DNA from: Erythrobacter neustonensis
GTDB taxonomy: Bacteria; Pseudomonadota; Alphaproteobacteria; Sphingomonadales; Sphingomonadaceae
Reading direction: 5' to 3'
DNA: 64,000 bases
NCBI RefSeq assembly: GCF_001663175.1
Contig: NZ_CP016033.1
Coordinates: 2,418,001-2,482,000 of the forward strand
Each line of letters opens with the position of its first letter. Positions within the stretch are counted from its first letter, which is position 1. The position numbers and the translations under genes are program-made. The notes beneath the pieces are model-generated. The model worked only from the letters and a program-made list of their open reading frames with translations, ran no database searches and was not told where the DNA came from. Below, in pieces: positions 15,402 through 39,668 of this stretch.

Positions 15402-15405
15402 CGCG

Positions 15406-16269: not shown

Positions 16270-16329
16270 CGCTGGCGGCGGACACGCAAGAGATAAGGAT
16301 TTCGATCATCATCTGACGGGGAGGGCGAA

Positions 16330-20738: not shown

Positions 20739-20917
20739 CGCATCGGACCGCCGTGCTTTGGCTGCCACGTGCAGCCATCTGCGTAGCCGTGCATCTAATC
20801 CGCGGATCGTGCGCCGAGAAAGCTATCAATTGGAGATGACGATGTCTGGCATATTGCCAAACGACGTACTGCCAATGCCCCCCAAGCTAGCCCAAGGGCT
20901 CCTTTGTCAAAGCGCTG
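20739..20917. promoter_or_regulatory. Divergent promoter region with a TGGCA-TAT-TGCCA dyad
   Basis: About 180 bases between the leftward lyase unit and the rightward Wzy unit. A perfect 5-3-5 palindrome, TGGCATATTGCCA, lies at 20847-20859, followed by a further TGCCA at 20870. Its central position makes it a candidate operator for both units. No experiment or database match supports it here. Confidence 0.4.
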
Positions 20918-22279
20918 ATGTTCGCGCAAAATCGCGCGATGTCGACAGCGGCGAGATATGGCGGTGAAGGCCTCCACGAAAGCCAGATGCTCCTGGCGCG
21001 CAGTCCGGCGCCGGTGCTTGCGATGTCGTCGGTCGACAAGACCGCTCGGATGTTCGCGCTTGCAGGCGCGTTCCTTTTGTCATGGCAACTCGTACGCATC
21101 CCCGAATTCAACTTCACCATCTCCGATGCCGCATTTCTGGTTGCGCTGGGAGCTGTGCTGCTGGGGGGGAGGCTGACGCCTTCCCCATTCGGACGACTTA
21201 CCGTGATGTGGATGGTGGGCGTCCTGCTGTTGCTCGGCGGATTGTTTCTCGGCTCGCTTTTCCATGAGGAAGTCGAGCGCTGGTTCAATGTCGCGGTGCA
21301 ATATCTGCTCGCGCTGTTCGTGCTTCCGCTGGTGCTGGCCAGTTTCGACCGGGAATTTCTGGGCAAAGCCGGTCTTGCCTTCGCCTATGGCGTCGCGGTG
21401 TCGCAGGTGGTGGGCATCGCGGCGCTGAAACTCGTGGGCTACGAACAGCTCACGCCGATCGTCGGTCGAACCATTGTCCTGGGTAACGACCGGATCGGTG
21501 CGCTGACTGCCGAGCCCAATGCCAATGGGGCGGTCTGTGTGTTTGCCCTGGTGATCCTGGCATCGGCGCTGCTCGAACGCCGGATCCGGCCGCTCCTCTG
21601 TGCGGCGACGGTGGCAACGGTGGTCGCGGGCCTTGTGTTCAGCGCCAGCTTTACTTCGCTGCTTGCGCTTGTTGCGTTAACCGCGATCATCGCGCCGCTC
21701 ACCTGGTCGCGCGGCTTCAATCGCGTCGCGGTGGCGGGCATCATGCTGGCGACGGTCTATATCGGCTTGGGCGGCCCGATCCCCGACATTTTCATGGAAC
21801 GGGTCGGCAGCGCCATCATCGAATGGGACCTGAGCAAGGCGGGAACCTTCGAAGGCCGCACGTCGCTGATCCTCGATGCCTGGCACCTTGCCAATGGGAA
21901 CCTCCTTGTCGGGCTGGGGGTCGATCAGTTCCGCGATGCGAGCATCTACGGCGCGCCTGTCCATAATCTGCCGCTGCTGCTGCTGAACGAGGGCGGTCTG
22001 CTGTCCTTCGCCGGACTTGCGATTCTTGTGATCTGCCTGTTTTTTTCATCGGCCATGGCCGGGGGCACCGATACGGTTGGCGGCGCCATCTGCTTTGCCG
22101 CACTTACGGTGCTGATGATCTACATCATGTCGTTGCCGCACATGTATGCCCGCCACTGGTTCGGGCCTGTCTTGCTGATTTACACGTATTATCTTGTCCC
22201 GCGGGTCGCGGCGATCAGGGGTTTTGCGCGTTCGGCATCACCTTCGGCTGCAACCTCTTTCTCCGGGGCCGGTTCATGA
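20918..22279 (+). CDS. Wzy/O-antigen ligase-like polysaccharide polymerase
   Basis: 453 residues, about 10-11 membrane segments. The large periplasmic loop typical of Wzy/WaaL follows the middle helices (VGSAIIEWDLSKAGTFEGRTSLILDAW), with the pattern RTSLILDAWHLANGNLLVGLG and VHNLPLLLLNEGG characteristic of the O-antigen ligase/polymerase family. It would join repeat units on the periplasmic side. The start is not well fixed: ATG 20918 and ATG 20939 are both in frame and neither has a strong ribosome site. It overlaps the flippase gene by ATGA and heads the five-gene assembly operon. Confidence 0.85.
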   Translation: MFAQNRAMSTAARYGGEGLHESQMLLARSPAPVLAMSSVDKTARMFALAGAFLLSWQLVRIPEFNFTISDAAFLVALGAVLLGGRLTPSPFGRLTVMWMVGVLLLLGGLFLGSLFHEEVERWFNVAVQYLLALFVLPLVLASFDREFLGKAGLAFAYGVAVSQVVGIAALKLVGYEQLTPIVGRTIVLGNDRIGALTAEPNANGAVCVFALVILASALLERRIRPLLCAATVATVVAGLVFSASFTSLLALVALTAIIAPLTWSRGFNRVAVAGIMLATVYIGLGGPIPDIFMERVGSAIIEWDLSKAGTFEGRTSLILDAWHLANGNLLVGLGVDQFRDASIYGAPVHNLPLLLLNEGGLLSFAGLAILVICLFFSSAMAGGTDTVGGAICFAALTVLMIYIMSLPHMYARHWFGPVLLIYTYYLVPRVAAIRGFARSASPSAATSFSGAGS

Positions 22280-23670
22280 ACCTCGGTCGGTCAAGCCATT
22301 TGCGGAGCGCGATCGCCGGCACCTCCGATCATTCCGAAAACCCCGAAGGTAGATTCAACACCGAAAAATCGCTTTTCCGGCGCCGATCGGAAAGCCTGCT
22401 TCATCTGATCGGGGGGAGCATCGGCACGGCATTGCTGATGTTTGCCAGCATCTCGATCGCGGCACGGGCGCTCGGTCCGGCGGCATTCGGCACGCTCGTG
22501 CTCATCCTTGCGATCGGCCGGGTGTGCGAGCGGTTGCTGCGGTTCGAATCATGGCAGCCGTTGATCCGCTATGTCGCGCTCGAGGAAGCAGCCGGTAACA
22601 ACGCCAATATCGCCCGCCTCTATCTTTACGGGCTGCTGCTCGACATCACGGCCGCCTTTGCCGCGGCACTGGTCGCGGTTGGTGCGGGTCTAGTGCTTGG
22701 CCCCTATATCGGGCTTCGACCGGAACACGCCGGACTGGTCGCGATCTATGCCCTGGCGATTGCCTGCAATATCCGCGGCGTGCCGAGTGCCGCACTGCGG
22801 ATGGCGGGGCGGTTCAGGACGCTTGCCTATATTCAGGCCGTGTCGGCAATCATGCGATTGGCACTGGCTTTCGTCCTGCTGTTCCAGGGGGCGGGGCTTG
22901 CCGCTTTCGTGGTGCTGTGGACTGCCATTCAGATCCTTGATGCGGCGATCTTTTTTCTGCTCGGCCTGAAGAGCCTGCGCGATCAGGGCGTGCCTTCGCT
23001 CTTTTCGGTGAGCTGGCGGGGCCTGCGGCAAGCCTTTCCGGGGTTTCTGCGGTTCGCGATGTCGACCAACCTGTCCTCCACCTTGCGCACGTTTTCGCAT
23101 GAGGCGGATACCTTGCTGGTCGGGTTCTTCATGGGGCCGGCAGCCGCCGGTCTGTATTTCCTTGCCCGGCGCATCGCCAAAGTCGCGCAACAGATCGGCG
23201 ACCTTGTCCAGATGGTGACCTATCCCGACCTTGCCCGCAGCTGGCATGCGGCGAAACGGGCGGCCTTCGGTCGGCTGGTACGTTTCGTCCAGATCGTCCT
23301 TGCCGGCTTTGGTCTGACGGCGATTTTTGGTGTCTGGTTGTTCGGGAAACCGGTTCTCGCTGCGGCCTTCGGTCCGGATTTCGTCGATGCCTACCCGATG
23401 CTGCTGGCCCAGCTGGTGGCGGTCGCCCTGATCCTGCACGCCGCGCCTTCCCGGTCCGCGCTGCTGGCGATGAACCGCCCCGCATTCGTACTCGCGACAG
23501 CAGCGGTATCGACCGTTGTCTTCTTTGCGACGGCGCTGTTTGCCATTCCGCACTACGGAGCAATCGGTGCCAATTTCGCGCATATCGCATTCGGAATCGT
23601 CACAGCGATCGCGCTCGACGCCGCTCTGTGGCGCGGCATCGGACGGCAGCCGCGCGAGTTGGTGGGTTGA
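22276..23670 (+). CDS. Wzx-like oligosaccharide flippase
   Basis: 464 residues with about 12-14 membrane segments of the MATE/MVF polysaccharide transporter type: GGSIGTALLMFASISIAARALGPAAFGTLVLI at the N-terminus, then a conserved FLRFAMSTNLSSTLRTFSHEADTLLVG segment. Wzx proteins move undecaprenyl-diphosphate-linked repeat units across the inner membrane. The start overlaps the polymerase stop as ATGA. A hydrophilic N-terminal extension of about 35 residues precedes the first helix. Confidence 0.88.
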   Translation: MNLGRSSHLRSAIAGTSDHSENPEGRFNTEKSLFRRRSESLLHLIGGSIGTALLMFASISIAARALGPAAFGTLVLILAIGRVCERLLRFESWQPLIRYVALEEAAGNNANIARLYLYGLLLDITAAFAAALVAVGAGLVLGPYIGLRPEHAGLVAIYALAIACNIRGVPSAALRMAGRFRTLAYIQAVSAIMRLALAFVLLFQGAGLAAFVVLWTAIQILDAAIFFLLGLKSLRDQGVPSLFSVSWRGLRQAFPGFLRFAMSTNLSSTLRTFSHEADTLLVGFFMGPAAAGLYFLARRIAKVAQQIGDLVQMVTYPDLARSWHAAKRAAFGRLVRFVQIVLAGFGLTAIFGVWLFGKPVLAAAFGPDFVDAYPMLLAQLVAVALILHAAPSRSALLAMNRPAFVLATAAVSTVVFFATALFAIPHYGAIGANFAHIAFGIVTAIALDAALWRGIGRQPRELVG

Positions 23671-24821
23671 ACGCGCCGCAGACCATAGCGCCCGCCTGCT
23701 CGCTGGCCCCGCAACCGCACGGCGGACTCGAGGTCTGGTCGATCCTGACAAGTCTGACGACGGGCGGCGCGGAAAGTCTGGTGGTCAATCTCGACCGCAG
23801 CTTCCGGCAAGCGGGAATGACCCATAAGGTCGTTGCGCTGTGCGATGCCGCAACGCTGGGCAATTCGTGCAAGACCGAAAGGCGCATTGCGAACCGGATC
23901 GAGGACGATGGCGGTACATTCGTAAGTTTGGGGCTGAGCCGGAACCGCAATCCCCTTGCCGGAATCGCCGCACTGAACAGGCTGCTGCAAACTGGCAGGC
24001 CGCACGTCATCCACGCGCATACCGCAAGGGCGGTGCCCATCGCCGCGCATTCGCGGCATCGCGGCGCGCTGGTGATGACCCATCACAACAGCCGCCTGTC
24101 ATTTCCCCGCGGTGCGTTCCGCTATCTCGATCTCGTGGTCGACACCTATGTCGCGATCAGTGCCGAGACCGAAGCGCTATACCGCGCGGTGTGCCGCAAG
24201 CCTGTGCGAAGAATAGCGAACGGCGTGCCCGAATCGTTCCTTTCGGAACGCAGGTCCGCGCCACGCCGACCCCCGTTCACGGTTATGAGCGTCGGCGCCA
24301 TATCCGAACAGAAGAATTACCGGCTGCTCATCGCCGCCGCCCGCGAAATCCGAAATCGTGCTGCCGGCAATCCGGTTGTAAAATTCAGGATCGCCGGCGG
24401 CGGGCAATCCCTCGACAGCCTCCGCTGCGAGGTCGATGCGGCGGGGCTTGCGGGCAGCGTTGAATTCGTGGGAGAGCGGTCCGATGTGCCGATCCTGCTG
24501 GGCACTGCCGATCTGTTTCTCAACACTTCGCGCTACGAAGGCCAGTCGATCGCGATGCTGGAGGCAATGGCGATGGCGCTTCCCGTCGTGGCGACCGATG
24601 TGCCGGGGAACCGCAATCTTGTCGTCCCCGGACACAATGGTCTGCTCGCGCCGCTGGACGACCCCGGCGCGATTGCCGATGCGATCATAAGATTGGCGGA
24701 TGATCCGCAGCTTTACGCAAGCATGTCGGATGGCGCGCGTGCAACGGGGCGGCAGTTCACCGTCGAAGCGACGGCCGCCGATCACCGCGCCCTTTATGCC
24801 TCGCTGGTCTCCAATGGATAG
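23667..24821 (+). CDS. Glycosyltransferase family 4
   Basis: 384 residues. The N-terminal domain carries VWSILTSLTTGGAESLVVNL (the TGGAE acceptor loop of many GT4 enzymes) and HAHTARAVPIAAHSRH; the C-terminal domain has VMSVGAISEQKNYRLLIAA and the EX7E motif in YEGQSIAMLEAMAMALP. The listed start is TTG 23667, which overlaps the flippase stop as TTGA; GTG 23628 inside the flippase gene is the alternative. Linked sugars are unknown. Coupling to wzx suggests it builds the repeat unit handled by this operon. Confidence 0.85.
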   Translation: MNAPQTIAPACSLAPQPHGGLEVWSILTSLTTGGAESLVVNLDRSFRQAGMTHKVVALCDAATLGNSCKTERRIANRIEDDGGTFVSLGLSRNRNPLAGIAALNRLLQTGRPHVIHAHTARAVPIAAHSRHRGALVMTHHNSRLSFPRGAFRYLDLVVDTYVAISAETEALYRAVCRKPVRRIANGVPESFLSERRSAPRRPPFTVMSVGAISEQKNYRLLIAAAREIRNRAAGNPVVKFRIAGGGQSLDSLRCEVDAAGLAGSVEFVGERSDVPILLGTADLFLNTSRYEGQSIAMLEAMAMALPVVATDVPGNRNLVVPGHNGLLAPLDDPGAIADAIIRLADDPQLYASMSDGARATGRQFTVEATAADHRALYASLVSNG

Positions 24822-27914: not shown

Positions 27915-28658
27915 TCAGCGCTCTTTTCGGCCCGCATGCACCATCACGCCGCGCGCCGCATCATTACTATGCGCCTTTGTGCCGACTATGATCTGGTCGA
28001 GGCTCGTCACGACATGCCCGGCTGCACGGTCGGGGCTGATGGGCGCACCTCTGTGGATCCGGCCCGGACGAAGGATCTGGACCGTCTGCCATCCCCGCCT
28101 GTTCGGCGCGATAAAGTCCTTCGCGGCATTGTCGGCAATATAGACGAGGGCGGAACCCGAAAAGCCGGTCGCCTCTTCGATGTGTTCGAACGCTCGCGGG
28201 TGAGGTTTGCCATACCCTGCCGGGAAGGCGCCTGTCAGAACGATGTGACCGATCCGGTCGGCAAGACCCAGCGCCACGACCTTCGCCGTCTGGGTCGGGG
28301 CAGGTCCATCGCTGATCAGACCCGTCGCTTTCACCACCGTCCGCGCCAGAAAGCGCTCTGCATCAAGGCACAAGGTTATTTGGGGCCGATGGCTGCGGTA
28401 AGCTTCGACGAGATTTTCGATCAGTCCGACCGGCGGAGTGACGCCCATAATCTCCAATGCCCGGTCGAAGACATCGCCCCGCTGGCCGGCATCGAGCAGT
28501 TGCAGGCAGCAGGCGGAAAATCTTTCCGGATTGAATTGTCCGCCAAACTGCCGGCTTGCCGCGATGAACCCGCTACGGGCAAAATCGCGTTCGAGATACA
28601 GCGTGTCGTCCAGATCGAAGACCACAACTTCCGCCGCGATCCGGACGAGGTCATTCAT
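27915..28658 (-). CDS. HAD-superfamily hydrolase
   Basis: 247 residues. Motif I is DLDDTLYLERD (Asp15 and Asp17 as nucleophile and acid/base), motif II ISDG, motif III the Lys of GKPHP, and motif IV IADNAAKDF, all typical of a phosphatase in HAD subfamily I. Substrate unknown; a phosphosugar or similar fits. Its start overlaps the ATP-grasp gene end by 8 bases and its 3' end lies 4 bases from the end of the rightward sugar transferase gene. It is the last gene of a leftward three-gene unit. Confidence 0.85.
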   Translation of the reverse strand: MNDLVRIAAEVVVFDLDDTLYLERDFARSGFIAASRQFGGQFNPERFSACCLQLLDAGQRGDVFDRALEIMGVTPPVGLIENLVEAYRSHRPQITLCLDAERFLARTVVKATGLISDGPAPTQTAKVVALGLADRIGHIVLTGAFPAGYGKPHPRAFEHIEEATGFSGSALVYIADNAAKDFIAPNRRGWQTVQILRPGRIHRGAPISPDRAAGHVVTSLDQIIVGTKAHSNDAARGVMVHAGRKER

Positions 28659-29622
28659 GGTAGACCGCTGCGTCGTAGCGCAGCATCAGCACGTTCTCGC
28701 GCCAGGCATTGCTGGCGCATTCTGGCTGCCCGATCGCGCGCGCGAGCAGGCTTTCGGCAAAGCGGCCGCCTGCCCTGTCAGCCAGCGGGTATCCGCCGCC
28801 GAAACGGGCGTTGATCTCGAACACTTTTGGCCCGTGGGTGCGATCATCGATTAGCTGGAAACACATCACTCCGGCAGGATCGGGCAGGGCCGCAACCAGC
28901 GTTCGGGCTATTTCTTCGAACTCGGGCCGGCGCACCGTCTCGCCCTTTTCGACCTCGCCGGCGCGGATCGACAATCTGCGGTGCGGGATCGCGGCCATGA
29001 GCGCTCCGGCCTGATCGACGTAGATGTTGACCGTAAATTCGTTGCCTTGCAGGAGTTCCTGAAGGATCATCGGCTCGGAATAATTGCGGGCAAGCTGATC
29101 GGCCGAACGGATCACGCCGATACCGCGGCTCGCGCTTCCGCCCGCAGGCTTGATGAACAGCGGCCACATCCAGTCATCAGGCGCTGCGAGCACCTCTTCG
29201 GGCGTGCCGGTCCGCGGCACCGGAACCCCCGCCGCCCGCAAGACATCGGTGGTTCTCTCCTTGTCGCGCACGATGGCAATCGTTTCCGGCCCGCTGACAT
29301 GAACCAGCGTCCCGGCGGCAGCGAAGCGGTCGCGCGCTTGCGCAAGCGGCATCAGCTCCGGATCGATCGTGGGAACCAGCAAACCGATGGAATTAGTCCG
29401 GCAATAATCGAAAAGGACATCGGCATAATCCGGTGCGCTGCATAGCGGGACGCCAAAAGAGTGGTCGGCCTCCCGGCACCCGGCACTGAGCGCGGGATCG
29501 AAATCGCAGGCGTGAACTTCGAGGCCCATCCCGATGCTCATGGCCGCCTTGCGGAAACAGCGGATCAATTCGACCCGGCGCCCCGCCGACGTGATGAGGA
29601 TGCGAAGCACTTGTCCACTCAC
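28651..29622 (-). CDS. ATP-grasp domain protein (CarB-like ligase)
   Basis: 323 residues. N-terminal Rossmann-like domain (VLRILITSAGRRVELIRCFRK) and an ATP-grasp domain: PLFIKPAGGSASRGIGVI (nucleotide-binding loop) and VFEINARFGGGYPLADRAGG (metal-binding Glu/Asn). Such ligases join a carboxylate to an amine with ATP, via an acyl phosphate. Close family members occur in surface-polysaccharide loci next to HAD and glycosyltransferase genes, possibly attaching an amino acid or similar group. GTG 29622 overlaps the preceding glycosyltransferase stop as GTGA; GTG 29610 is the alternative. The carboxylate and amine substrates cannot be read here. Confidence 0.8.
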   Translation of the reverse strand: MSGQVLRILITSAGRRVELIRCFRKAAMSIGMGLEVHACDFDPALSAGCREADHSFGVPLCSAPDYADVLFDYCRTNSIGLLVPTIDPELMPLAQARDRFAAAGTLVHVSGPETIAIVRDKERTTDVLRAAGVPVPRTGTPEEVLAAPDDWMWPLFIKPAGGSASRGIGVIRSADQLARNYSEPMILQELLQGNEFTVNIYVDQAGALMAAIPHRRLSIRAGEVEKGETVRRPEFEEIARTLVAALPDPAGVMCFQLIDDRTHGPKVFEINARFGGGYPLADRAGGRFAESLLARAIGQPECASNAWRENVLMLRYDAAVYHE

Positions 29623-30761
29623 GAGGCGGTGTTTTCGATAACGAGTTCGGGCTGCGGCCAAGGCGCTGCTTTTCGCCGCGAGCGGGTGGTCGCTTCGATC
29701 AGATCGTCCCAGCGTGACAGAATGGCTGCGGGCTCGAACTTCCGCATCGAAACTTTGGCCATCGCTCCATAGCTGCTGCGAAGCGTGTGATCGGTTATCA
29801 GGCCGGAGATTGCATCTGCCATCGCATCGGCATCTTGCACCGGGACGAGCACCCCGTTCTCACCGTTGGCGATCATTTCTGCAGGGCCAAAATCGCAATC
29901 GGTCGCAATCACCGGCAAACCCGATGCCAGTGCCTCGCCCAGGGCATTGCCGAAGCCTTCATAGAGCGATGACTGGACGAATATGGTCGCATGGCGCGCC
30001 CAGTCACCTGGTTGTTCGGTCGTCCCGGGAAGGCTGATGCGGCTGCCTAGTCCCATTTGTTCGACCTGTTGTTCCAGCGCCGCCCTGATCTCCCCGTTGC
30101 CCCAGATCGTGAGGTTCCATTCAGGGTGATGATCGGCGACTTTCGCGAAGGCATCGATCAGGTGCGGAAAGCCTTTCTGCGGCGTCAACCGTCCCACCGC
30201 ACACAGCGTCCTGGCATCGTCTGCGTCCGGATCGCGATCGAAGCCCGCAATCGGATTGTAGATCACGACCAGGCGGTCGCGCACCGAACGCGGAAAACAG
30301 CGCCTGATCGCATTGGTCTGGCAGACGATGAAATCCGCGCGGCGATAACCGACCTTGAGCAGCAGGTTCCAGAGCCGGTTGGCATCCTGGCGTTCGGGAT
30401 TGTTGCGCTCCGAACAGATCAAAGGCGTGGGCGTGCCGAGACAGGCCAGCGCGGCGAGCAGATTGTTCTTGGTGAGGAAGGAAACCAGCGCGTCGGGCCG
30501 GATTTGGCCAAGCGTTTCGCGCAGGCGAAGCAGGCGTCTGGCATTCCCGCGATACCCCACCGAGACCTGCGCGCCGAGCCTCCATAGCGTCACCTGCGCG
30601 GGCAATGGGTGATAGACAGGATCGTCGGCCCGGTCGAAAGTGATGATCGACACGCGGTGCCCGCGATCGACCCAATGGTGCGCAAGCATCGCGATCACCC
30701 GTTCGGCGCCCCCTGCGCCAAGCGCGGTGATGAGGATCGCGATGTGCTTTTGCGCCGACAC
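29619..30761 (-). CDS. Glycosyltransferase family 4
   Basis: 380 residues from GTG 30761, chosen because the conserved core begins right after it (HIAILITALGAGGAERVIAM). The middle has CSERNNPERQD and RRADFIVCQTNA; the C-terminal domain has LCAVGRLTPQKGFPHLIDAF and the EX7E motif in YEGFGNALGEALASGLP. The region upstream of 30761 is not coding-like. It leads a unit with ATP-grasp and HAD genes. Donor sugar unknown. Confidence 0.87.
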   Translation of the reverse strand: MSAQKHIAILITALGAGGAERVIAMLAHHWVDRGHRVSIITFDRADDPVYHPLPAQVTLWRLGAQVSVGYRGNARRLLRLRETLGQIRPDALVSFLTKNNLLAALACLGTPTPLICSERNNPERQDANRLWNLLLKVGYRRADFIVCQTNAIRRCFPRSVRDRLVVIYNPIAGFDRDPDADDARTLCAVGRLTPQKGFPHLIDAFAKVADHHPEWNLTIWGNGEIRAALEQQVEQMGLGSRISLPGTTEQPGDWARHATIFVQSSLYEGFGNALGEALASGLPVIATDCDFGPAEMIANGENGVLVPVQDADAMADAISGLITDHTLRSSYGAMAKVSMRKFEPAAILSRWDDLIEATTRSRRKAAPWPQPELVIENTAS

Positions 30762-31012
30762 TGATCGTCCACCCCGAACGCTGTTGCATGCAAGGTAGTA
30801 GCAGCGTGGCCCGCACGCTGAAGTAATCTTGCGGGCTACCCCGTTTTGGAAAGGCGCCGATTGCGCCAAACCTGGATGGCGCGCGCTTCGCCAAGAATGA
30901 TTACGCCGGTTTTGCGCTCGCTTGAGACGGCAACAAGGATCATCGCGGCAAAGCAGGAATACTAAAAACGCGGGAGACCCGGGGCGTGGCGACAGGCAGA
31001 GGTGAGCATCCG
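30762..31012. promoter_or_regulatory. Divergent intergenic region between two glycan units
   Basis: About 250 bases between the leftward GT4/ATP-grasp/HAD unit and the rightward GT-C/CDP-sugar unit; both promoters must lie here. No clear repeat is seen. The ribosome site of the rightward gene (GAGGTGAG) is at 31000-31007. Confidence 0.4.
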
Positions 31013-32575
31013 ATGCGGCGCCCGGCGGCATTCGCCGGCTTTGCCGCCCTTTCGCTCATCCTGACAGGTATCGCGGGGCGGATCCTTTCCTATCCCCTCA
31101 ATCGTGACGAAAACCTGTTCATCGCCGCAGCGAGCCAGCTTGGCAGCGGGGACCTCTACCGCGACCTCGGTTATAACCATCTTCCCAACTTCGCCTATCT
31201 GCTAGGGGGCTTCTACCGGCTCACGAATGCGCAATATCTGCTGCTGTCAGGCCGCCTCCTCATGTTTGTCGGGTGGATTGCGGCGCTCTGCGCAATCTGG
31301 CTGCTGGTCAGAAAAGCGCGGCAGGGTATCGAGCTTTTCTTCGCGTCCTCGGCCCTGCTGGTGGGCAATGTGTTTTTGCTTGGCCCCTCGGGAATGCTGG
31401 TCAGTAACAACTTCATCCCGATCCCTTGCATCCTGTTCGCGTTCTTTCTCCTGTGGCGCGCGCTCGAACACGGGCCCCCTCGCAGCATCGACGCATTCGT
31501 TGCCGGAGTGCTGGTTTCTCTGACAATCGGCCTCAAGGCGAATTACATCATCCTTGCGCCATTCTTCGCACTGGCGACCGTGATCGCACCAAGGGCTCTA
31601 TCGATCGGTCAGCGCCTTCTCAGGGGAAGCCTACCGCTGGCGATCGGCGGTCTGGTCGGCGGGCTGCCTGTTCTGATCCATATGGCGCTCGATCCCCAAG
31701 GCTTTATCGCCCATACGCTGCGCTACTTCACCGAATTGCAGCCGGCATTCTGGCGCAGCGTCGATGGCCCCAAAACCGTCAGCATCGCGGACAAGATCCT
31801 GCTCGCCGAAGAGGTTTGGATGAGCGGCGTCGTCCTGATGGCTGCGGCTACCAGCGCGGTTCTGTGCGGGATCGTGATTCTGCGATCGGGCGCGCGGGGG
31901 CTTCTCGATTGGCGTGTGCTGATATTGTCGGGCCTGCTTGCATGCAGCGTGCTGGTGGCTTTCGTGCCCACCCCCTCGTTCCCGCAATATTTCGTCCCGC
32001 CGGTGCCATTTCTGATCCTGCTGATGATCGTTCTGGCCAGCATGGTCGAGGGCGGCAGCCGGGCCTTCGTGCAAGTGCTGATGATCGTGTTTGCGCTGCT
32101 TGGTCTTGTTACAGGCGCATCGCGGGTTTTGCCGGGACTGCTCGCGTTTCGCGATCCCGGAAGCTGGCAATCGCTCGAAATTCACCGCGAAATCCGCGAG
32201 ATGGGGCGCGCTGCCGGCCTTGCCAAAGGGGCGCGGATTGCTGCGCTTACCCCGGTGCCGGCCCTCGAAGGGGGATACGCGATCTACCCTGAATTTGCTG
32301 CGGGGCAGTTCGTCTACCGCGTCGCGCCTTATATCGCGCCAGCCGACCGGCGCTTCTACCGAACGACCTCGCCGGCCGGTTTGTTCGAGTTTCTCGATGC
32401 CAACCCTCCGGCCGGCATTCTCGTCAATCCTGCCGAACCGATCGAGACACGCCTTGCCGAATATGCGCGGGCGCGTGGGTTCGTTCGCCTGGACAACCTC
32501 AACAGGTACGGCAGCTTCGACCTTTACATTCCTTCGAGCGGGAATGCCGCAAGCCCGCCATCAGCCAGAAGATAG
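31013..32575 (+). CDS. GT-C-type polytopic glycosyltransferase-like membrane protein
   Basis: 520 residues, about 10-11 membrane segments. The first periplasmic loop carries an acidic motif, NRDENLFIAAASQL, at the position where GT-C glycosyltransferases (ArnT/PMT type) carry catalytic Asp/Glu residues. A C-terminal hydrophilic domain follows (about 400-520). Such proteins use polyprenyl-phosphate sugar donors on the periplasmic side. ATG 31013 has GAGGTGAG upstream; GTG 30986 is the alternative. It may pair with the GtrA/GtrB proteins at the other end of this unit, in the manner of three-component Gtr systems. That pairing is inference. Confidence 0.78.
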   Translation: MRRPAAFAGFAALSLILTGIAGRILSYPLNRDENLFIAAASQLGSGDLYRDLGYNHLPNFAYLLGGFYRLTNAQYLLLSGRLLMFVGWIAALCAIWLLVRKARQGIELFFASSALLVGNVFLLGPSGMLVSNNFIPIPCILFAFFLLWRALEHGPPRSIDAFVAGVLVSLTIGLKANYIILAPFFALATVIAPRALSIGQRLLRGSLPLAIGGLVGGLPVLIHMALDPQGFIAHTLRYFTELQPAFWRSVDGPKTVSIADKILLAEEVWMSGVVLMAAATSAVLCGIVILRSGARGLLDWRVLILSGLLACSVLVAFVPTPSFPQYFVPPVPFLILLMIVLASMVEGGSRAFVQVLMIVFALLGLVTGASRVLPGLLAFRDPGSWQSLEIHREIREMGRAAGLAKGARIAALTPVPALEGGYAIYPEFAAGQFVYRVAPYIAPADRRFYRTTSPAGLFEFLDANPPAGILVNPAEPIETRLAEYARARGFVRLDNLNRYGSFDLYIPSSGNAASPPSARR

Positions 32576-32699: not shown

Positions 32700-33521
32700 A
32701 TGAAGGTTGTCTTGCTGGCTGGCGGGATGGGTTCACGGCTTGCCGAAGAAACCATCCGTATTCCCAAGCCCATGGTCGAAGTCGCCGGGCGCCCGATCAT
32801 CCTGCACGTTATGGATATCTATCACAGTTTCGGGTTCAGCGAATTCATCGTCGCATGCGGATACAAGGGCATGCTGATCAAGAAGTTCTTTCATGATCTA
32901 CACCTGATGAACAACGACTTCACGGTCGGGATCGGCGACGGGGAAATGTGCCTTTCGCCCACCTGCAAGCTCAACTGGCGGGTATCGGTGGTCGACACGG
33001 GCCTGTCGACGATGACCGGGGGGCGGATCAGGCGGCTGCGCGACTGGATCGGCGATGAGCCTTTCATGGTCACCTATTCCGATGGGGTCGGCAATGTCGA
33101 CATCGGCAAGCTTGTCGCGTTCCACAAGGCGCACGGCAAACTGGCGACCGTGACGGCGGTCCAGCCGCCTGCGCGGTTCGGCAATCTCGAACTGGCCGGC
33201 GACAAGGTCACCGATTTTACCGAAAAGGTGCAGCGTCACGAAACCTGGATCAACGGCGGGTTCTTCGTCTTCGAGCCTGCGGTGCTCGATTACCTGACCG
33301 GGGACGACGAACCGCTGGAAAAGGAACCGCTGACGCAGATCGCGCGCGATGGCGAACTGATGGCGTTCAGGCATCACGGTTTCTGGCATCCGATGGACAC
33401 GATCCGCGACCGCGACCTGCTCGAAAATCTGGGCGCGCGCGTGCTGCCACCCTGGATGGATTTCGAAAACGGCAAAGCGATCACCAGCACCGATATCCCC
33501 GCCGAGCTGATCAGTGCGTGA
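32700..33521 (+). CDS. rfbF: Glucose-1-phosphate cytidylyltransferase
   Basis: 273 residues. The nucleotidyltransferase signature LAGGMGSRLAEETIRIPKPM opens the protein (residues 5-24), followed by YSDGVGNVDI, TWINGGFFVFEPAVLDYL and FRHHGFWHPMDT, all close to RfbF. The enzyme makes CDP-glucose from CTP and glucose-1-phosphate, the first step of CDP-dideoxyhexose pathways. ATG 32700 is taken because the signature starts there. The stop overlaps the GTG start of the 4,6-dehydratase by 8 bases, so both are coupled. Confidence 0.95.
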   Translation: MKVVLLAGGMGSRLAEETIRIPKPMVEVAGRPIILHVMDIYHSFGFSEFIVACGYKGMLIKKFFHDLHLMNNDFTVGIGDGEMCLSPTCKLNWRVSVVDTGLSTMTGGRIRRLRDWIGDEPFMVTYSDGVGNVDIGKLVAFHKAHGKLATVTAVQPPARFGNLELAGDKVTDFTEKVQRHETWINGGFFVFEPAVLDYLTGDDEPLEKEPLTQIARDGELMAFRHHGFWHPMDTIRDRDLLENLGARVLPPWMDFENGKAITSTDIPAELISA

Positions 33522-34656
33522 CCGGGCGGCTACAGATTTCACCGCGATCGCGGAGGCATTCCGCGGCCGGCGGGTGCTCGTCACCGGCCACACCGGCTTC
33601 AAAGGTGGCTGGCTGAGCCTCTGGCTATCGCAAATGGGCGCGCATGTGACGGGCGTTTCCTTGCCGCCAGCAGCAGAACCCTCGCTGTTCGAAAGCGCGC
33701 GTATCGCGCAATTCGTCGACCACCGGATCGCCGATATCCGCAAGCCCGAGGAATTCGCCGAGGCAACGCAAGGGTGCCAGCCGGATCTGCTGATCCACAT
33801 GGCTGCGCAGTCACTGGTGCGGCCGTCATACGATGACCCGGCGGGCACCTTCGCCACCAACGTGACGGGCACCGCAGTCGTGCTCGACTGGGCGCGGCGC
33901 TTGCCGATGCTCAAGGGGATTGTCGTTGTCACCAGCGACAAATGTTACGAAAATCACGAATGGGCCTGGCCCTACCGCGAGAACGACCAGATCGGCGGGG
34001 CTGATCCCTATAGCGCCTCGAAAGGTTGCGCTGAAATCGTCGCGGGCGCTTTTCGCCGCTCCTATTTCTCCGAACCCGGGTCGGCTCATGTGGCGACCGT
34101 TCGCGCGGGCAATGTGTTCGGGGGAGGGGACTGGGCGACCGACCGCCTGATCCCCGATATCATCCGAGCGGCGATGGCCGGCAGGAGCGTGCGGATCCGC
34201 AATCCTGCCAGTGTCCGCCCGTGGCAGCATGTGCTCGAACCGCTGTCGGGCTATCTCCTGCTCGGCAGCCTGCTGATGTCGGCACGCGGCGGCGAATTTG
34301 CCGGAGCGTGGAATTTCGGGCCGCCCGCCGACGCCTTCCTGCGGGTCGACGATATCGCGCGGGGACTGCTTGCGCAGTGGGGCGATGGCCGGCCGCAAAT
34401 CGAATTGGGCGCCAGCGCTTGCGATCCGCACGAGGCGGGCATGCTCACGCTCGACAGCAGCAAGGCGCGTCAGCGGCTCGGCTGGCGCCCGCGTCTGTCG
34501 ACCGACGCGGCCATTGCGATGACCGCCGACTGGTACCGCGCCTTTGCCGGGGGCGATGCCGACATGCAGGCATTCACCCGTGCCCAGATCGGGGAATATG
34601 TCGGCGGCGAAACGTCCATCCCTCAGCCAGCAGAGAAGATGCCATTATGCGTGTGA
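33514..34656 (+). CDS. rfbG: CDP-glucose 4,6-dehydratase
   Basis: 380 residues from GTG 33514. The Rossmann motif VTGHTGFKGGWLSLWL is at about residues 23-38, followed by IHMAAQSLVRPSY, VVTSDKCYENHEW and the catalytic YSASK. These match RfbG, which converts CDP-glucose to CDP-4-keto-6-deoxyglucose. It overlaps the cytidylyltransferase upstream by 8 bases and the dehydrase downstream by 10 bases. The product is the likely substrate of the next three proteins. Confidence 0.95.
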   Translation: MRDRAATDFTAIAEAFRGRRVLVTGHTGFKGGWLSLWLSQMGAHVTGVSLPPAAEPSLFESARIAQFVDHRIADIRKPEEFAEATQGCQPDLLIHMAAQSLVRPSYDDPAGTFATNVTGTAVVLDWARRLPMLKGIVVVTSDKCYENHEWAWPYRENDQIGGADPYSASKGCAEIVAGAFRRSYFSEPGSAHVATVRAGNVFGGGDWATDRLIPDIIRAAMAGRSVRIRNPASVRPWQHVLEPLSGYLLLGSLLMSARGGEFAGAWNFGPPADAFLRVDDIARGLLAQWGDGRPQIELGASACDPHEAGMLTLDSSKARQRLGWRPRLSTDAAIAMTADWYRAFAGGDADMQAFTRAQIGEYVGGETSIPQPAEKMPLCV

Positions 34657-35876
34657 ATTACGGACAGACCGTTCACGGGGAAGAAGAAATCGCTGCGGTC
34701 GTCGATGTGCTGCGCACCTCGACGCAGATGGGGCCCAAGGTGCGCCTGATGCAGCAACGCGTTGCAAAGCTGTTTGCGAAGAACCACGGGATCATGGTCA
34801 ACTCGGGGTCCTCGGCGAACTATCTTGCGATGGAGTTGCTCAACCTTCCCGAAGGCAGCGAGGTCATTACCCCGGCGCTCACCTTTGCGACAACCGTTGC
34901 GCCCATCGTGCGCGGGCGGCTGGTTCCCGCTTTCGTCGATTGCCGCGAAGGCACCTACAACATCGATGCCGACCGGATCGAGGAGATGATCGGGCCGAAG
35001 ACCAGGGCGATGATGATCCCCTCGCTGATCGGCAACCTTCCCGATTGGGACCGCATCCGCGAAATTGCTGATCGGCACGGCCTGATGGTGATCGAGGACA
35101 GCGCCGATACCCTGGGCGCGACGCTGCGCGGCACCAGCACCGGCACCCGCTCGCATATCAGCACGACGAGCTTTTACGGTAGCCACGTGATCAACGCCGG
35201 CGGCAATGGCGGGATGCTGTGCGTATCCGATCCGGATCTGGCGCGGCAGGCGCTGCTGCTCCGATCGTGGGGGCGGTCATCGTCGCTGTTTACCGATGCG
35301 GGCGATTCCGAAAGCATCGAAAACCGCTTCAACATCGAGCTCGATGGCATCGAATATGATGCCAAATTCGTGTTCTCCGAACTCGGCTTCAATGTCGAGC
35401 CGTCGGAAATGGGGGCCGCCTTCGGCCTCGTCCAGCTCGACAAGCTCGACCGGAATATCGCGCTTCGCGAACACAATTTTGCCCGGCAACTGGCCTTTTT
35501 CAGCCAGTATGAGGACTGGTTCGTTCTGCCCCGCCAAATAGAGCATTCGCGGACGGGCTGGCTCGCCTTTCCGCTCACGCTGCGGCCCGGTGCGCCCTTC
35601 AGCCGCCGGGAGATGCAGATATTTCTCGAAAAACACGACATCCAGACGCGGGTCGTTTTCACCGGCAACATCCTGCGCCAGCCGGCGATGCGCAATGTCG
35701 CGTGCAAGACGCATGACGGCGGATACCCGGCGTCCGATGCCGTCATGCGCGGCGGCATCCTGCTTGCCTGCCATCACGGGCTGACCGACCAGCAGCTCGA
35801 CTATCTCCACGAATGTTTCAGTGAATTTGCCCGCACCCGGACGGGCATCCAGACCAGCGAGGCCGTCCATGCTTGA
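34647..35876 (+). CDS. PMP-type DegT-fold sugar 3-dehydrase homologue without Fe-S cysteines
   Basis: 409 residues of the DegT/DnrJ/EryC1 fold. The Schiff-base Lys is replaced by His180 (SFYGSHVINAGGNGG), the hallmark of PMP-dependent 3-dehydrases (RfbH/E1 and ColD). After LRSWGR, where E1/RfbH carries its Cys-rich [2Fe-2S] loop, this protein has SSSLFTDAGDSESIENRF with no Cys. No E3-type reductase gene is seen in the window. It may therefore deoxygenate C-3 by the ColD-like, glutamate-assisted route. The reaction is inferred. Overlaps: 10 bases with rfbG, 8 with the methyltransferase. Confidence 0.85.
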   Translation: MRVNYGQTVHGEEEIAAVVDVLRTSTQMGPKVRLMQQRVAKLFAKNHGIMVNSGSSANYLAMELLNLPEGSEVITPALTFATTVAPIVRGRLVPAFVDCREGTYNIDADRIEEMIGPKTRAMMIPSLIGNLPDWDRIREIADRHGLMVIEDSADTLGATLRGTSTGTRSHISTTSFYGSHVINAGGNGGMLCVSDPDLARQALLLRSWGRSSSLFTDAGDSESIENRFNIELDGIEYDAKFVFSELGFNVEPSEMGAAFGLVQLDKLDRNIALREHNFARQLAFFSQYEDWFVLPRQIEHSRTGWLAFPLTLRPGAPFSRREMQIFLEKHDIQTRVVFTGNILRQPAMRNVACKTHDGGYPASDAVMRGGILLACHHGLTDQQLDYLHECFSEFARTRTGIQTSEAVHA

Positions 35877-37131
35877 TCCGCTTATGACCCAGACGCTTCC
35901 CGCTTCGACGATGGACAAGTGCCGCGCCTGCGGTGCGCCCGATCCCTATCTCTTTCTGGCCTACGGCGAACATTCGCCGGCCCAAATGCTGATCCGGCCG
36001 GAAAGCGTCGACGAACCGCAGCCCACCTTCCCGCTGAACGCGCAGGCCTGTCTCAACTGCGGACTGATTGCGGTGGCCGACCAGATCCCCGAAAATTTCT
36101 TTGCCCATTACCTCTACGTGCCTTCGGGCGCGGCCACGATGCACAGCCATTTCGAGGAATTTGCCGAAGTGATCGCCGATCGCGTCGGCGCGCGGGGGTT
36201 GATCGTCGATATCGGCAGCAACGACGGGCTGCTGCTCGCGGCGTGCAACGCGCGCGGCTGCGCAACGCTTGGCGTGGACCCTGCAAAGAACATCGCCGCG
36301 CTCGCCGCAAAACGCGGGGTCGAGACGCATGTCGATTATTTCCATCCGGCCTCGGCGCGCGAGTTGCTGGCAAAATACGGGCCGGCAACGGTCATCACCA
36401 CCACCAACACCTTCAATCACATCGGCAACCTCCATCAGTTCATGGAGGCGGTGTGCATCTTGCTGTCCGCCGACGGAACCTTCATCATCGAGGTGCCCTG
36501 GGCCAAGGAAATGCTCGAGCGTGCCGAATTCGACAACATGTACCATGAACACGTGTCGGAATTCAGCATGCTCTCGATGGTCAAACTGGCCGAGCAGTTC
36601 GATCTCGAAGTCAGCGACGTGACCTTCTTGAAGGGCATTCACGGCGGATCGATCCGGGTCTTCATGACGCGCCAGACCGCCGGTTTTCCCATCTCGGACA
36701 ATGTCGCCAAGCTGCTCGCCGAAGAACGTGCGGTCGGCATGTTCGACAAGGCGACCTATGATGCGCGCAAAAGGGAATTCGACGAAACCGGCGAAGTGCT
36801 GGTGAGCATCATCGAAGACCTGAAAGCGCAAGGCAAGAAGATCGCAGGCTACGGTGCCTCCGCCCGCGGCAACACCACGATCACCTATTACGGGATTGGC
36901 CCGGAGCATCTCGATTTCCTCGTCGACAAGAATCCACTGAAGCAGGGGTTGTTTTCGCCCAACACGCGCATTCCGATCAAACCGGTCGAAGCGATCGAGG
37001 AAGAACGCCCCGACGTGCTGTTCATGCTGGCGTGGAATTTCTTCGACGAGATCTACGCGCAGCAAAGCGCGTTCCGTGAGCGGGGAGGGCAGTTCCTGGT
37101 TCCCTTCCCCAGACCGCATCTCGTTTCCTGA
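35869..37131 (+). CDS. Zinc-finger sugar C-methyltransferase (NovU/TylC3 family)
   Basis: 420 residues. An N-terminal four-Cys zinc module (Cys18, Cys21, Cys61, Cys64: CRACG and CLNCG) is followed by a SAM-binding domain with VDIGSNDGLLLAAC at about 103 and a C-terminal domain containing KIAGYGASARGNTTITYYG. This architecture is that of NDP-sugar C-methyltransferases, which add a methyl to C-3 or C-5 next to a 4-keto group. In context the substrate would be a CDP-4-keto (dideoxy) sugar. ATG 35869 overlaps the preceding gene by 8 bases. Confidence 0.9.
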   Translation: MLDPLMTQTLPASTMDKCRACGAPDPYLFLAYGEHSPAQMLIRPESVDEPQPTFPLNAQACLNCGLIAVADQIPENFFAHYLYVPSGAATMHSHFEEFAEVIADRVGARGLIVDIGSNDGLLLAACNARGCATLGVDPAKNIAALAAKRGVETHVDYFHPASARELLAKYGPATVITTTNTFNHIGNLHQFMEAVCILLSADGTFIIEVPWAKEMLERAEFDNMYHEHVSEFSMLSMVKLAEQFDLEVSDVTFLKGIHGGSIRVFMTRQTAGFPISDNVAKLLAEERAVGMFDKATYDARKREFDETGEVLVSIIEDLKAQGKKIAGYGASARGNTTITYYGIGPEHLDFLVDKNPLKQGLFSPNTRIPIKPVEAIEEERPDVLFMLAWNFFDEIYAQQSAFRERGGQFLVPFPRPHLVS

Positions 37132-37156
37132 TTGAAACGTGGGGGAAGGGCGGATC

Positions 37157-38140
37157 TTGCAAGGGCGCATCTGTCTTGTGACAGGTGCGGCCGGCTTCAT
37201 CGGGTCGCACATGGTGCGGCGCCTGGTCGCCGAGGGCGCACAGGTTCATGCGCTGGTCCGGCCGGGCAGCGCACCCGTCAGGCTTGAGGCCCTCTGCAAC
37301 AAGATCCGGATGGCTCCGGTCGATCTGCACGATGCCTGCGCGGTCAGATCGGCGGTTGCGGCAGCGAGGCCCGATCTCGTGTTTCATTTTGCAGGCCAGA
37401 ACCGCGGGCTCGATACGGCCAGTCCGAACGCTGCGCGCAAGGCGCTGGCCGCGATCCTTCCGCCAGCGATCAACCTGATCGACGCCTTAGCACAATTGCC
37501 AGCCGCGCCGCGGGCGGTCGTGCGCGCGGGGACGATTGCCGAATACGGCCTCTCGTCCTTGCCCTATCGCGAAAGCGACCGCGAAAAACCGGTCAACGCC
37601 TATGGCGCGGCGATGCTGGCCGCGACCCGCACCATCGAGATGCTGGCGCCCGGGCTCGCCTTTCCCGTCACGACTGCGCGGCTCGCGCTCACCTATGGCC
37701 CCGGCCAGTCAGACGCGTTCCTGATCCCGCGGCTTGTCGACGCGGCCATTTGCGGGCGCAGCGTCGAAGTCCGCCGTCCCGGTGACCGGCGCGATCTGAT
37801 CCACGTCGACGACGTGGTTTCGGCAATGCTTGCGCTTGCTTGCGCGCGCGATCCGCGCAGCAGGATCATCAACATCGGCACAGGCGCTGCACCGAGCATG
37901 CGCGAGGTCGCCGCCGAGATTGTCTCGGCGAGCGGCTGCAGTCCCGCGCTTATCGTTCACCGTGCGCAATCGGCTGGCGAGAAATTCGCCGAACTGCGCA
38001 GCGATCCGTCGCTTGCCCGCGCGCTGTACGGCTGGTCCCCGCAATGCAGCCTGCGGCAGGGGATCAGGCAGCTCGTCGCAGGCCGGCGCACCCCGGGCCA
38101 TTCCCATTATTTACCGGATAGGGCGGACACCTATGGGTAA
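37157..38140 (+). CDS. NAD(P)-dependent extended SDR, possible 4-ketoreductase
   Basis: 327 residues from TTG 37157, which has GGGGGAAGGG 7 bases before it; GTG 37139 upstream lacks a ribosome site. The Rossmann motif is TGAAGFIGSHM at about 9-19. The usual catalytic YxxxK reads YGAAM (Tyr149, Met153), so the Lys is missing, and the Ser cluster is RAGTIAEYG. In its place in the pathway it would reduce the 4-keto group or change a stereocentre, but the missing Lys leaves activity open. Its TAA overlaps the glycosyltransferase ATG by 8 bases. Confidence 0.75.
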   Translation: MQGRICLVTGAAGFIGSHMVRRLVAEGAQVHALVRPGSAPVRLEALCNKIRMAPVDLHDACAVRSAVAAARPDLVFHFAGQNRGLDTASPNAARKALAAILPPAINLIDALAQLPAAPRAVVRAGTIAEYGLSSLPYRESDREKPVNAYGAAMLAATRTIEMLAPGLAFPVTTARLALTYGPGQSDAFLIPRLVDAAICGRSVEVRRPGDRRDLIHVDDVVSAMLALACARDPRSRIINIGTGAAPSMREVAAEIVSASGCSPALIVHRAQSAGEKFAELRSDPSLARALYGWSPQCSLRQGIRQLVAGRRTPGHSHYLPDRADTYG

Positions 38141-39125
38141 GAGCAGCAGCGCCACGCTTGTTTCGATTCTTGTCCCGGCATTCAACGAAGAGGAGAATGT
38201 CGAACGCGCTTACGAGACGATCGTGCGGACGTTCGAGCGGTTGCCCGATTATCAATGCGAAATCATCTTCACCGACAATCATTCCACCGATCGGACCTTC
38301 GAGATCCTGCAGCGGATCGCGAAAGAGGATCAGAGGGTCAAGGTGACCCGGTTTTCGCGGAATTTTGGATACCAGCGCTCTCTGCTCTATGGCTACAAGA
38401 GCGCGTCGGGCGCGTGCTCCATCCAGATCGACTGCGACTTGCAGGATCCGCCCGAACTCATTCCCAAGATGCTCGAACTGTGGCGGATGGGGCACCAGGT
38501 CGTGTTTGGTATCCGCCGCACGCTGGCCGACGGCTTCGTCGTGGCCTCGCTGCGGCGGGCGTTCTACTGGCTGATCGCAAGCATCAGCGACGACAACCTG
38601 CCGATCAACGCCGGCGAATACCGGCTCTGCGACCGGGTCATTCTCGACGAACTGCGCAAGGTCAACGACACAACACCCTATATGCGCGGCCTGATCAGCG
38701 CGATGGGGTTCTCCCAGGTCGGGTTCGAATACGACCGTGCCGATCGCATCGCCGGGACGAGCAAGTTTCCCTTGAAGTCGATGATTTCGCTCGCGGTCGA
38801 CGGCATGCTCAACCATTCGCTTCTGCCGCTGCGCCTCGCGTCGTTCGCCGGGCTTGGGGTGGGACTGATCTGTCTCGTGCTGACCTGCAGCTATATCGTG
38901 GGGCGGGTATTGTTCGGACAGGACTGGCCCGCCGGCTTTGCCACCACGACGATCCTTTTGTTGATGTCGATCTCGCTCAACGCGATGTTTCTGGGTGTGA
39001 TCGGCGAATATATCGGCCGGTTGTTCGTGCAGTCGCGCACCAATGTCGATCCGATCATCGAGGCGAAGCTGAACTTCGAGGAACCGAAGCCGTATCGCCT
39101 GCGCGGAATACAATCAGTCGATTGA
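38133..39125 (+). CDS. GtrB/DPM1-like glycosyltransferase family 2 membrane protein
   Basis: 330 residues. The GT-A catalytic domain opens VSILVPAFNEEENVERAYE, with DxD-like IQIDCDLQDPPELIPKML and RNFGYQRSLLYGYKSA. Two C-terminal membrane helices follow (about 240-262 and 277-300). GtrB-type enzymes transfer a sugar from its nucleotide to undecaprenyl phosphate on the cytoplasmic side. It is the last gene of the CDP-sugar unit, so the CDP-branched sugar may be its donor. Its 3' end overlaps the opposite-strand GtrA gene by 71 bases. Confidence 0.9.
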   Translation: MGKSSSATLVSILVPAFNEEENVERAYETIVRTFERLPDYQCEIIFTDNHSTDRTFEILQRIAKEDQRVKVTRFSRNFGYQRSLLYGYKSASGACSIQIDCDLQDPPELIPKMLELWRMGHQVVFGIRRTLADGFVVASLRRAFYWLIASISDDNLPINAGEYRLCDRVILDELRKVNDTTPYMRGLISAMGFSQVGFEYDRADRIAGTSKFPLKSMISLAVDGMLNHSLLPLRLASFAGLGVGLICLVLTCSYIVGRVLFGQDWPAGFATTTILLLMSISLNAMFLGVIGEYIGRLFVQSRTNVDPIIEAKLNFEEPKPYRLRGIQSVD

Positions 39126-39489
39126 GAACGTAGAAAACCGCCGCGTAGGTGCAGATCGCGATGAGCTGGACAATCACCCCATCAAGCCATGCAAGCTGCC
39201 GCCCGGCCGCAAGCACCGCCACGTTCACGCCGTAAGCAGCGGCGAGCACCAGTGCAAACCGGACCAGTTCGGATACTCCGGCAACCCGCGCTGCCCGGAA
39301 GGTGAAATGGCGGTGCAGACGATGCGCGAGAGGTATGCCAAGCGCAAAGCCGAGAGCATTGGCGGCAAAGTCGCCAAGGCCAAACGACAGACCCAGCAAT
39401 ATGATTGCATACCCGATCGCGGTGTTGAATATCCCCACGGCGACAAAGCGCAAGATCGTGAACAGTTCGGTTCTCGCCTTGTGGGTCAT
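39055..39489 (-). CDS. GtrA-family flippase-like membrane protein
   Basis: 144 residues and four membrane helices in the GtrA/DPMS pattern: VAVGIFNTAIGYAIILLG, then PLAHRLHRHFTFR and YVLNRLIVFRAG. GtrA proteins are thought to flip undecaprenyl-phosphate sugars to the periplasm. ATG 39489 is where the conserved N-terminus begins. The gene is convergent with the GT2 gene: its last 71 bases lie antisense to the end of that gene. GtrA and GtrB genes are normally codirectional, so the arrangement is unusual. Confidence 0.88.
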   Translation of the reverse strand: MTHKARTELFTILRFVAVGIFNTAIGYAIILLGLSFGLGDFAANALGFALGIPLAHRLHRHFTFRAARVAGVSELVRFALVLAAAYGVNVAVLAAGRQLAWLDGVIVQLIAICTYAAVFYVLNRLIVFRAGDTASVPRSSASPR

Positions 39490-39668
39490 CGCAGTCCCCG
39501 GATGCGGGTTTGATAACGACCATCCCGGGGCGATGGTCAAACAGGCCCGCCTGTTGCAAATTCGAACGCAAGAGCGCGTTCTCACCAGTCGAGGCTGAGT
39601 AATCCAGCCCCGACTGCGTGATCCCATGACTTGTATTGATTGATCCGCCTGATCCGGGCTCCGCCGCG

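Follow-up and report, generated by a model that had tools for sequence, protein, structure and literature searches.

Removal of the 3-hydroxyl group from nucleotide sugars is described for DegT-fold enzymes with a catalytic histidine, among them E1/RfbH (PDB 3bcx), whose [2Fe-2S] cluster relays electrons and which is paired with the reductase E3, and ColD, the GDP-4-keto-6-deoxymannose 3-dehydratase (PDB 2gms/3b8x), which has the histidine and no cluster. Branching methyl groups are added by zinc C-methyltransferases of the TylC3/TcaB9 type (PDB 4rv9, 3ndi), known members of which act on dTDP-linked sugars; the C3 methylated by TylC3-type enzymes carries a hydroxyl group, and NovU is a 5-C-methylating homolog. 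CDP-vinelose from Azotobacter, a CDP-linked 6-deoxy sugar, has a methyl branch on C3 and keeps its 3-oxygen. The excerpt of PMC7851689 that deals with E1/E3 reports that the pair failed in vitro, which its authors blame on a probably dysfunctional iron-sulfur cluster. Here we analyze a six-gene operon at 32700-39125 of a 64,000-nucleotide stretch, the window, from Erythrobacter neustonensis (NZ_CP016033.1, positions 2,418,001 to 2,482,000), whose genome is one contig, a complete chromosome of 3,090,363 bp. All six genes lie on the + strand, with adjacent pairs overlapping or 7 bp apart. The operon probably converts CDP-glucose to a rare branched deoxy sugar for the cell surface; our favored account, which we hold with somewhat better than even confidence, is that it synthesizes a CDP-activated sugar, 3-deoxygenated and C-methylated, and delivers it, the third step falling to a DegT protein from a third His-type clade.

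The DegT protein differs from E1 at the residues on which E1 chemistry depends. The column of the Schiff-base lysine holds His180 in the window protein, exactly as the initial annotation had proposed, and histidine in 81/81 rows of the query class, defined as DegT rows scoring >300 bits to the window protein (81 rows, 72 distinct, with the window protein included and repeated as L002 and L088). In alignments and trees alike, the Lys and Fe-S groups set against it were defined by the residues themselves, which makes these comparisons circular to that extent. The cluster ligands of E1, which we take to be C193, C251, C253 and C261, align to A153, S212, L214 and I224 of the window protein, and the corresponding CX57CX1CX7C spacing was verified on the E1 sequence; the earlier observation that the [2Fe-2S] cysteines are missing past LRSWGR therefore stands. 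Cysteine occupies the three loop ligand positions in 0/81 query-class rows, the C251 position being serine in 81/81, and this serine and His180 both recur in 120/120 of the best database homologs. As a control, the loop CxC-x7-C was present in every one of the 30 loci retrieved as above-cut-off matches to the RfbH model. This model, NF011936, describes the window protein best, at 315 and 318 bits, under its cut-off of 423. Gly340-Asn341 is common to the His types, the Lys rows mostly having Pro at the second position, and the window protein carries WGRSS where 10/11 ColD-like rows show HGW(T/V)R. R210, R227 and D238 had looked exclusive to E1 and the query class, a notion we rejected on finding them in 1, 3 and 5 of 11 ColD-like rows, respectively. 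The nearest named relative comes from an uncultured Erythrobacter (86%), and some database homologs are labelled 'NarL family transcriptional regulator', a likely misannotation.

Phylogeny points the same way. We rooted two trees with Lys-type enzymes as outgroup, a quick tree of 116 rows (35 loci left out by name, mostly near-duplicates, with some thinning) and a careful tree of 53 chosen rows, and in both the His types divide into Fe-S RfbH, ColD-like proteins and the query class. The query class is recovered with an SH-aLRT support of 100 in the 116-row tree and at 100/100 in the 53-row tree, which also separates it from the Lys enzymes at 100/100 and supports a ColD clade at 99/92 with the window protein outside; one long ColD-like row, L154, falls outside the ColD-like group in the 116-row tree. 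A grouping of the query class with RfbH is favored at 97/87 by the 53-row tree, whereas the 116-row tree left the sister open, and an approximately unbiased (AU) test rejects neither the query class and ColD as sister groups (p 0.098) nor RfbH with ColD (p 0.209). Membership of the window protein in a third His-type clade, distinct from E1/RfbH and ColD, is thus a well-supported assignment. The comparison with RfbH and ColD suggested in the initial annotation therefore gave a separate third clade, and the aminotransferase placement with an alternative lysine, named there as the outcome that would overturn the idea, is not borne out by the trees. Its proposal of a ColD-like deoxygenation of a CDP-4-keto-6-deoxy sugar survives in part: the data are best read as a protein that acts on a CDP sugar in the way ColD does, and its assignment to ColD itself is not supported.

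In a 398-genome phylum sample, the RfbH model matched 44 genomes at E<=1e-80, and 36 of these exceed its cut-off. Fragments aside, the scores form two groups, a high one at 668-761 bits and a low one at 271-345 bits; the window, at 318, falls in the latter. Nine further low-scoring loci, all but G344, were fetched, and they are ColD-like or L154, none of them query class. Counting the window's own genome, the gene cluster occurs patchily, in 13/298 genomes of the family and 11/385 of the class, and it was found in 0/6 other listed congeners.

Profile matches and coordinates (Table 1) agree on the order cytidylyltransferase, 4,6-dehydratase, DegT protein, C-methyltransferase, short-chain dehydrogenase/reductase (SDR) and family 2 glycosyltransferase (GT2), as first annotated. 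The six-gene set exceeds chance, since 23 other fetched loci carry all six.

Table 1. Genes of the operon and its immediate neighbors in the window
Feature	Coordinates	Strand	Remarks
Polytopic membrane protein, 523 aa	31004..32575	+	11 hydropathy peaks; candidate GT-C type periplasmic glycosyltransferase
Glucose-1-phosphate cytidylyltransferase	32700..33521	+	TIGR02623, 328 bits vs cut-off 300
CDP-glucose 4,6-dehydratase	33514..34656	+	TIGR02622, 450 bits vs cut-off 278
DegT-fold His-type Fe-S-less CDP-sugar 3-dehydratase candidate, 409 aa	34647..35876	+	His180; PF01041, 257 bits
Zinc C-methyltransferase (TylC3/TcaB9 type)	~35869..37131	+	PF08421 zinc domain, PF08484; start codon uncertain
Extended SDR, Tyr155-xxx-Met159 for YxxxK; candidate C4 reductase	37139..38140	+	
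GT2, GtrB/ArnC polyprenyl-phosphate glycosyltransferase type	38130..39125	+	two C-terminal hydropathy peaks
GtrA-family membrane protein, candidate lipid-linked sugar flippase	39055..39627	-	PF04138, 68.5 bits; convergent downstream

We propose the following pathway, in which the first two enzymes are assigned by curated family models (the 4,6-dehydratase has its YxxxK as YSASK) and steps 3-6, including the deoxygenation, the site of methylation and the product, are inferred. Glucose-1-phosphate and cytidine triphosphate would yield CDP-glucose (step 1), to be dehydrated to CDP-4-keto-6-deoxyglucose (step 2). The DegT protein in its pyridoxamine phosphate (PMP) form would then form a Schiff base with C4, His180 taking a proton as the C3 hydroxyl departs; the adduct would be hydrolyzed in the manner of ColD to pyridoxal phosphate (PLP) and an enamine, which would give the 4-ketone and ammonia; PMP would be restored by glutamate or another amino donor (step 3). 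Hydrolysis of this kind is proposed because neither an iron-sulfur cluster nor an E3 partner was found. The zinc C-methyltransferase may methylate a carbon adjacent to the C4 ketone, C3 being the likeliest and C5 a possibility (step 4), and the SDR may reduce C4, the least certain assignment (step 5). By homology, the GtrB-like GT2 would load the sugar onto polyprenyl phosphate and GtrA would flip the lipid-linked sugar, after which the 11-peak membrane protein would pass it to a surface glycan (step 6).

The identity of the C-methyltransferase held up well. Its best solved match is TylC3 (268 bits), followed by sugar 3-C-methyltransferases and TcaB9, and its CxxC...CxxC zinc domain, S-adenosylmethionine (SAM) domain and PF08484 C-terminal domain are all present. 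We compared 31 methyltransferase rows, three of which (L082, L175 and L179, the last a weak one) do not belong to the operon type. The four zinc cysteines, H184 and H228 are invariant (31/31), and Y225 and E227 occur in 30/31; we take this Tyr/His/Glu/His set to be catalytic.

The SDR is more unusual, which the initial annotation had not remarked on. The lysine of its YxxxK motif is replaced by Met159, with Thr132, Tyr155 and the GxxGxxG nucleotide-binding motif retained, and its predicted model (pLDDT 92) matches SDR epimerase/dehydratase structures. Lysine is found in 0/30 operon SDR rows, which have Met, Leu or Ile, plus one Gln and one His, as against 13/13 comparison rows (three repeats), including RfbH-adjacent SDRs and those that occupy the same slot in other phyla. 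Amongst the 120 best database homologs, the lysine is absent in 119, Tyr155 is present in 117, and Thr/Ser132 and Glu135 are kept in 120. Since the operons that have no methyltransferase share the loss, we do not link it to methylation. Loss of a triad residue need not abolish SDR activity, judging by the active E. coli FabG variants reported in a portion of PMC7973133, and C4 reduction is the likeliest role that the SDR sequences suggest, with low certainty.

The delivery genes suggest, by homology, transfer via a polyprenyl-phosphate sugar and lipid-linked export; the type of the GT2 and the adjoining GtrA and membrane-protein genes were likewise absent from the initial annotation. The GT2 combines its glycosyltransferase domain with C-terminal membrane helices, as in GtrB and ArnC, and matches solved sll0501, presumably GtrB, best (177 bits, versus 97 for ArnC); that its donor would be a CDP sugar is suggested by the operon alone. 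The 11-peak protein has a homolog in 30/31 loci of the operon type described below and no Pfam match at E<=1e-4, and we assume the GT-C label from its topology and an RDE-type motif. GtrA homologs adjoin the operon in 10/31 of these loci (L006-L013, L053, L197) at the sensitivity used. Elsewhere in the window, 12097-24815 holds polysaccharide genes, including an export protein, a flippase-type protein, family 4 glycosyltransferases (GT4s), a sulfotransferase, a Polysacc_synt_2 dehydratase and, at 14190-15395, a Lys-type DegT gene. HAD-like, PylC-like ATP-grasp and GT4 genes lie divergent to the operon at 27915-31031 (-), and a homolog of this GT4 recurs near many other operon loci.

Other genomes largely preserve the CDP-glucose context. 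We counted homologs of the CDP-glucose genes at a minimum of 35% identity (>=35%) in the fetched stretches, several of which come from contigs cut short; the cytidylyltransferase and the CDP-glucose dehydratase occur together in 33 of the 48 query-class loci that come from named genomes, with the cytidylyltransferase alone in 4 and the dehydratase alone in 1. An alphaproteobacterial operon type comprises 31 loci besides the window, 23 with all six genes, among which L014 and L036 have one extra gene inside. The methyltransferase alone is absent from four (L016, L019, L199, L200), and because these keep the remaining genes we regard deoxygenation as independent of the methyltransferase. L203 has no SDR or GT2 homolog, and L053 no methyltransferase, SDR or GT2 homolog; in the latter (Novosphingobium HII-3, L053:7992-9400) the operon ends at the DegT gene with GtrA directly next to it, through a deletion or an assembly join. 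The two loci that have no 4,6-dehydratase, L164 and L165, are informative: at L164:9961-16841 a nucleotide-sugar 6-dehydrogenase (TIGR03026, 394 bits, over cut-off) stands in its place beside an SDR whose closest family is UDP-glucuronate decarboxylase (187 bits; next family 78), and the L165 copies are 80% and 88% identical. These pairs suggest, on family resemblance, a pentose product, and would lead in a different way to a 4-keto sugar whose 3-hydroxyl group is free. A similar dehydrogenase/SDR pair sits between the cytidylyltransferase and DegT genes in L044, a metagenome-assembled genome of Legionellales.

Beyond the operon type, the DegT gene has other partners. It lies beside RmlC- and RmlD-like genes in Flavobacteriales (L026, L028) and next to a Lys-type SDR in L027, L033, L039 and L046, partners that match what a 4-keto-3-deoxy sugar would need. 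L034 has an annotated split transketolase and an acetolactate-synthase-like thiamine pyrophosphate (TPP) enzyme nearby, L035, L045 and L052 have the same clusters by similarity, and such enzymes might add a two-carbon branch to a 4-keto sugar. At L082:2355-7230, a C-methyltransferase gene occurs with those for a ColD-like protein, a cytidylyltransferase, a CDP-glucose dehydratase and an RmlC-like protein, so that C-methylation is paired independently with a protein of the Fe-S-less His type. In L175 a C-methyltransferase homolog adjoins a cytidylyltransferase ~7.5 kb from an RfbH. Two loci with CDP-glucose genes in the region hold two 3-dehydratases, L151:2595-6908 (~2 kb apart) and L152 (~8 kb apart); we considered whether they contradict our assignment and rejected this, as the protein that accompanies the Fe-S RfbH belongs to the ColD clade.

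Several other roles for the DegT protein were weighed against these data. It might carry out the same 3-deoxygenation by E1-like reduction, with no protein-bound cluster and with electrons from a general donor (ferredoxin, flavin or NAD(P)H), which we consider improbable. E1 is its nearest relative by score, structure and tree, W208 and Y237 are common to the query class and E1 and scarce in ColD or Lys rows, and the genome encodes ferredoxin-type proteins and a ferredoxin-NADP reductase-like protein; however, the electron-relaying cluster of E1 cannot form where no row has a loop cysteine, and loop residues 211-230 are predicted to be poorly ordered (block means 58 and 66). The absence of E3 agrees with an Fe-S-less enzyme: a search of the complete window genome with E3 gave nothing at E<=1e-10, bearing out the initial annotation, and the two FAD_binding_6 proteins present have no ferredoxin domain. 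We dropped a missing E3 neighbor as proof because an E3-like protein, first identified by its ferredoxin motif, lies in only 4/20 RfbH neighborhoods; genome-wide, a strong E3 (>=190 bits) occurs in 6/20 RfbH versus 0/20 query-class genomes, and any match at E<=1e-10 in 10/20 versus 5/20. A somewhat less remote prospect, though still unlikely, is that the protein removes no oxygen and acts on the 4-keto sugar, with PMP or PLP, as an epimerase or isomerase at C3 (or C5), leading to a product of the vinelose kind that is C-methylated and 6-deoxy but not 3,6-dideoxy; CDP-vinelose offers a precedent, and His-type proton transfer could accommodate such a reaction. Yet RmlC-like epimerases adjoin query-class DegT genes as separate genes, and the characterized His types E1, ColD and SpnQ are 3-dehydratases in the sections of PMC8987622 that cover them. 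Automatic database names call relatives aminotransferases, which would have to use another lysine; we find this barely credible and rejected a shifted lysine on the alignment and trees, given the invariant histidine, the 100/100 split from Lys enzymes and the Gly340-Asn341 of His types.

Another alternative keeps the enzymes and changes the order or site, with methylation preceding deoxygenation or falling at C5 rather than C3, and we give it a minority chance that deserves attention. The ketone is flanked by both carbons, and the action of TylC3-type enzymes on a hydroxyl-bearing C3 and that of NovU on C5 both lend it weight, whereas the four methyltransferase-less operons keep dehydratase and SDR, and the ten solved homologs found for the methyltransferase are named 3-C-methyltransferases or TcaB9. 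We also considered that the released 3,4-enamine is itself C-methylated at C3 via SAM and the 4-imine reduced by the Lys-less SDR, giving a CDP-3-C-methyl-4-amino-3,4,6-trideoxy sugar with no aminotransferase; were this so, loss of the SDR lysine would reflect reduction of an imine, not a ketone, but we know of no precedent and rate it a long shot.

ColD-like deoxygenation of a CDP sugar thus remains our preferred account, and the following weighs against it. To our knowledge, no member of the query clade has an established activity, and the absence of a cluster does not establish glutamate use. The first ligand position retains cysteine in 11/81 query-class rows, and 10/48 loci show neither CDP-glucose gene in the fetched stretch. 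With strong E3 in just 6/20 RfbH genomes, its absence gives weak support. The SDR has no triad lysine, so the C4-reduction step may be wrong, and no polyprenyl-phosphate transferase with a CDP-sugar donor is known to us or emerged from a literature search.

If this account is correct, the query class would be a third lineage of sugar 3-dehydratases, in which CDP sugars are deoxygenated without the E1/E3 iron-sulfur pair, and an enzyme that needs no cluster would make CDP-3,6-dideoxy sugars accessible to synthesis. The operons would also offer a conserved case of SDRs losing the catalytic lysine, together with a hexose/pentose module swap. The trees raise the question of whether the E1 cluster is a derived state, as when rooted they need only one gain, on the RfbH stem.

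Compared with known systems, the window protein shares with E1/RfbH its fold, catalytic histidine, loop length and CDP-glucose context, and E1 gives the top score among solved structures; it differs in the missing cluster cysteines, a score under the NF011936 cut-off, its separate clade and the lack of a detected E3. With ColD it shares the catalytic histidine without a cluster and, as proposed, the hydrolytic route, and differs in clade, in the WGRSS motif and in standing beside CDP- rather than GDP-sugar genes. SpnQ, the dTDP-4-keto-2,6-dideoxyglucose 3-dehydrase, is likewise a His type, which can use non-dedicated partners and which differs in its four-Cys cluster motif, as described in parts of PMC8987622. 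The GtrB/ArnC-type GT2, the neighboring GtrA and the polytopic membrane protein recall the GtrA-GtrB-GT-C and ArnC/ArnT systems, except that here a CDP sugar would be the donor; PMC11127046 describes a system for pentofuranose in which the flippase is of the MATE type. The operon methyltransferase keeps the zinc cysteines and active-site residues of TylC3 and TcaB9, with the difference that we expect it to act on a CDP-linked sugar, perhaps one already deoxygenated at C3. Literature searches (open-licence PMC) turned up neither the query clade nor its product, which the initial annotation had described as a branched 3,6-dideoxy sugar not known to it from CDP pathways; C-methylation of a CDP-linked sugar has a precedent in CDP-vinelose, and we know of no CDP-linked C-methyl sugar that is also 3-deoxy. 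What would set the proposed product apart from CDP-vinelose is the loss of the 3-oxygen, which vinelose keeps and for which its pathway would be expected to need no 3-dehydratase.

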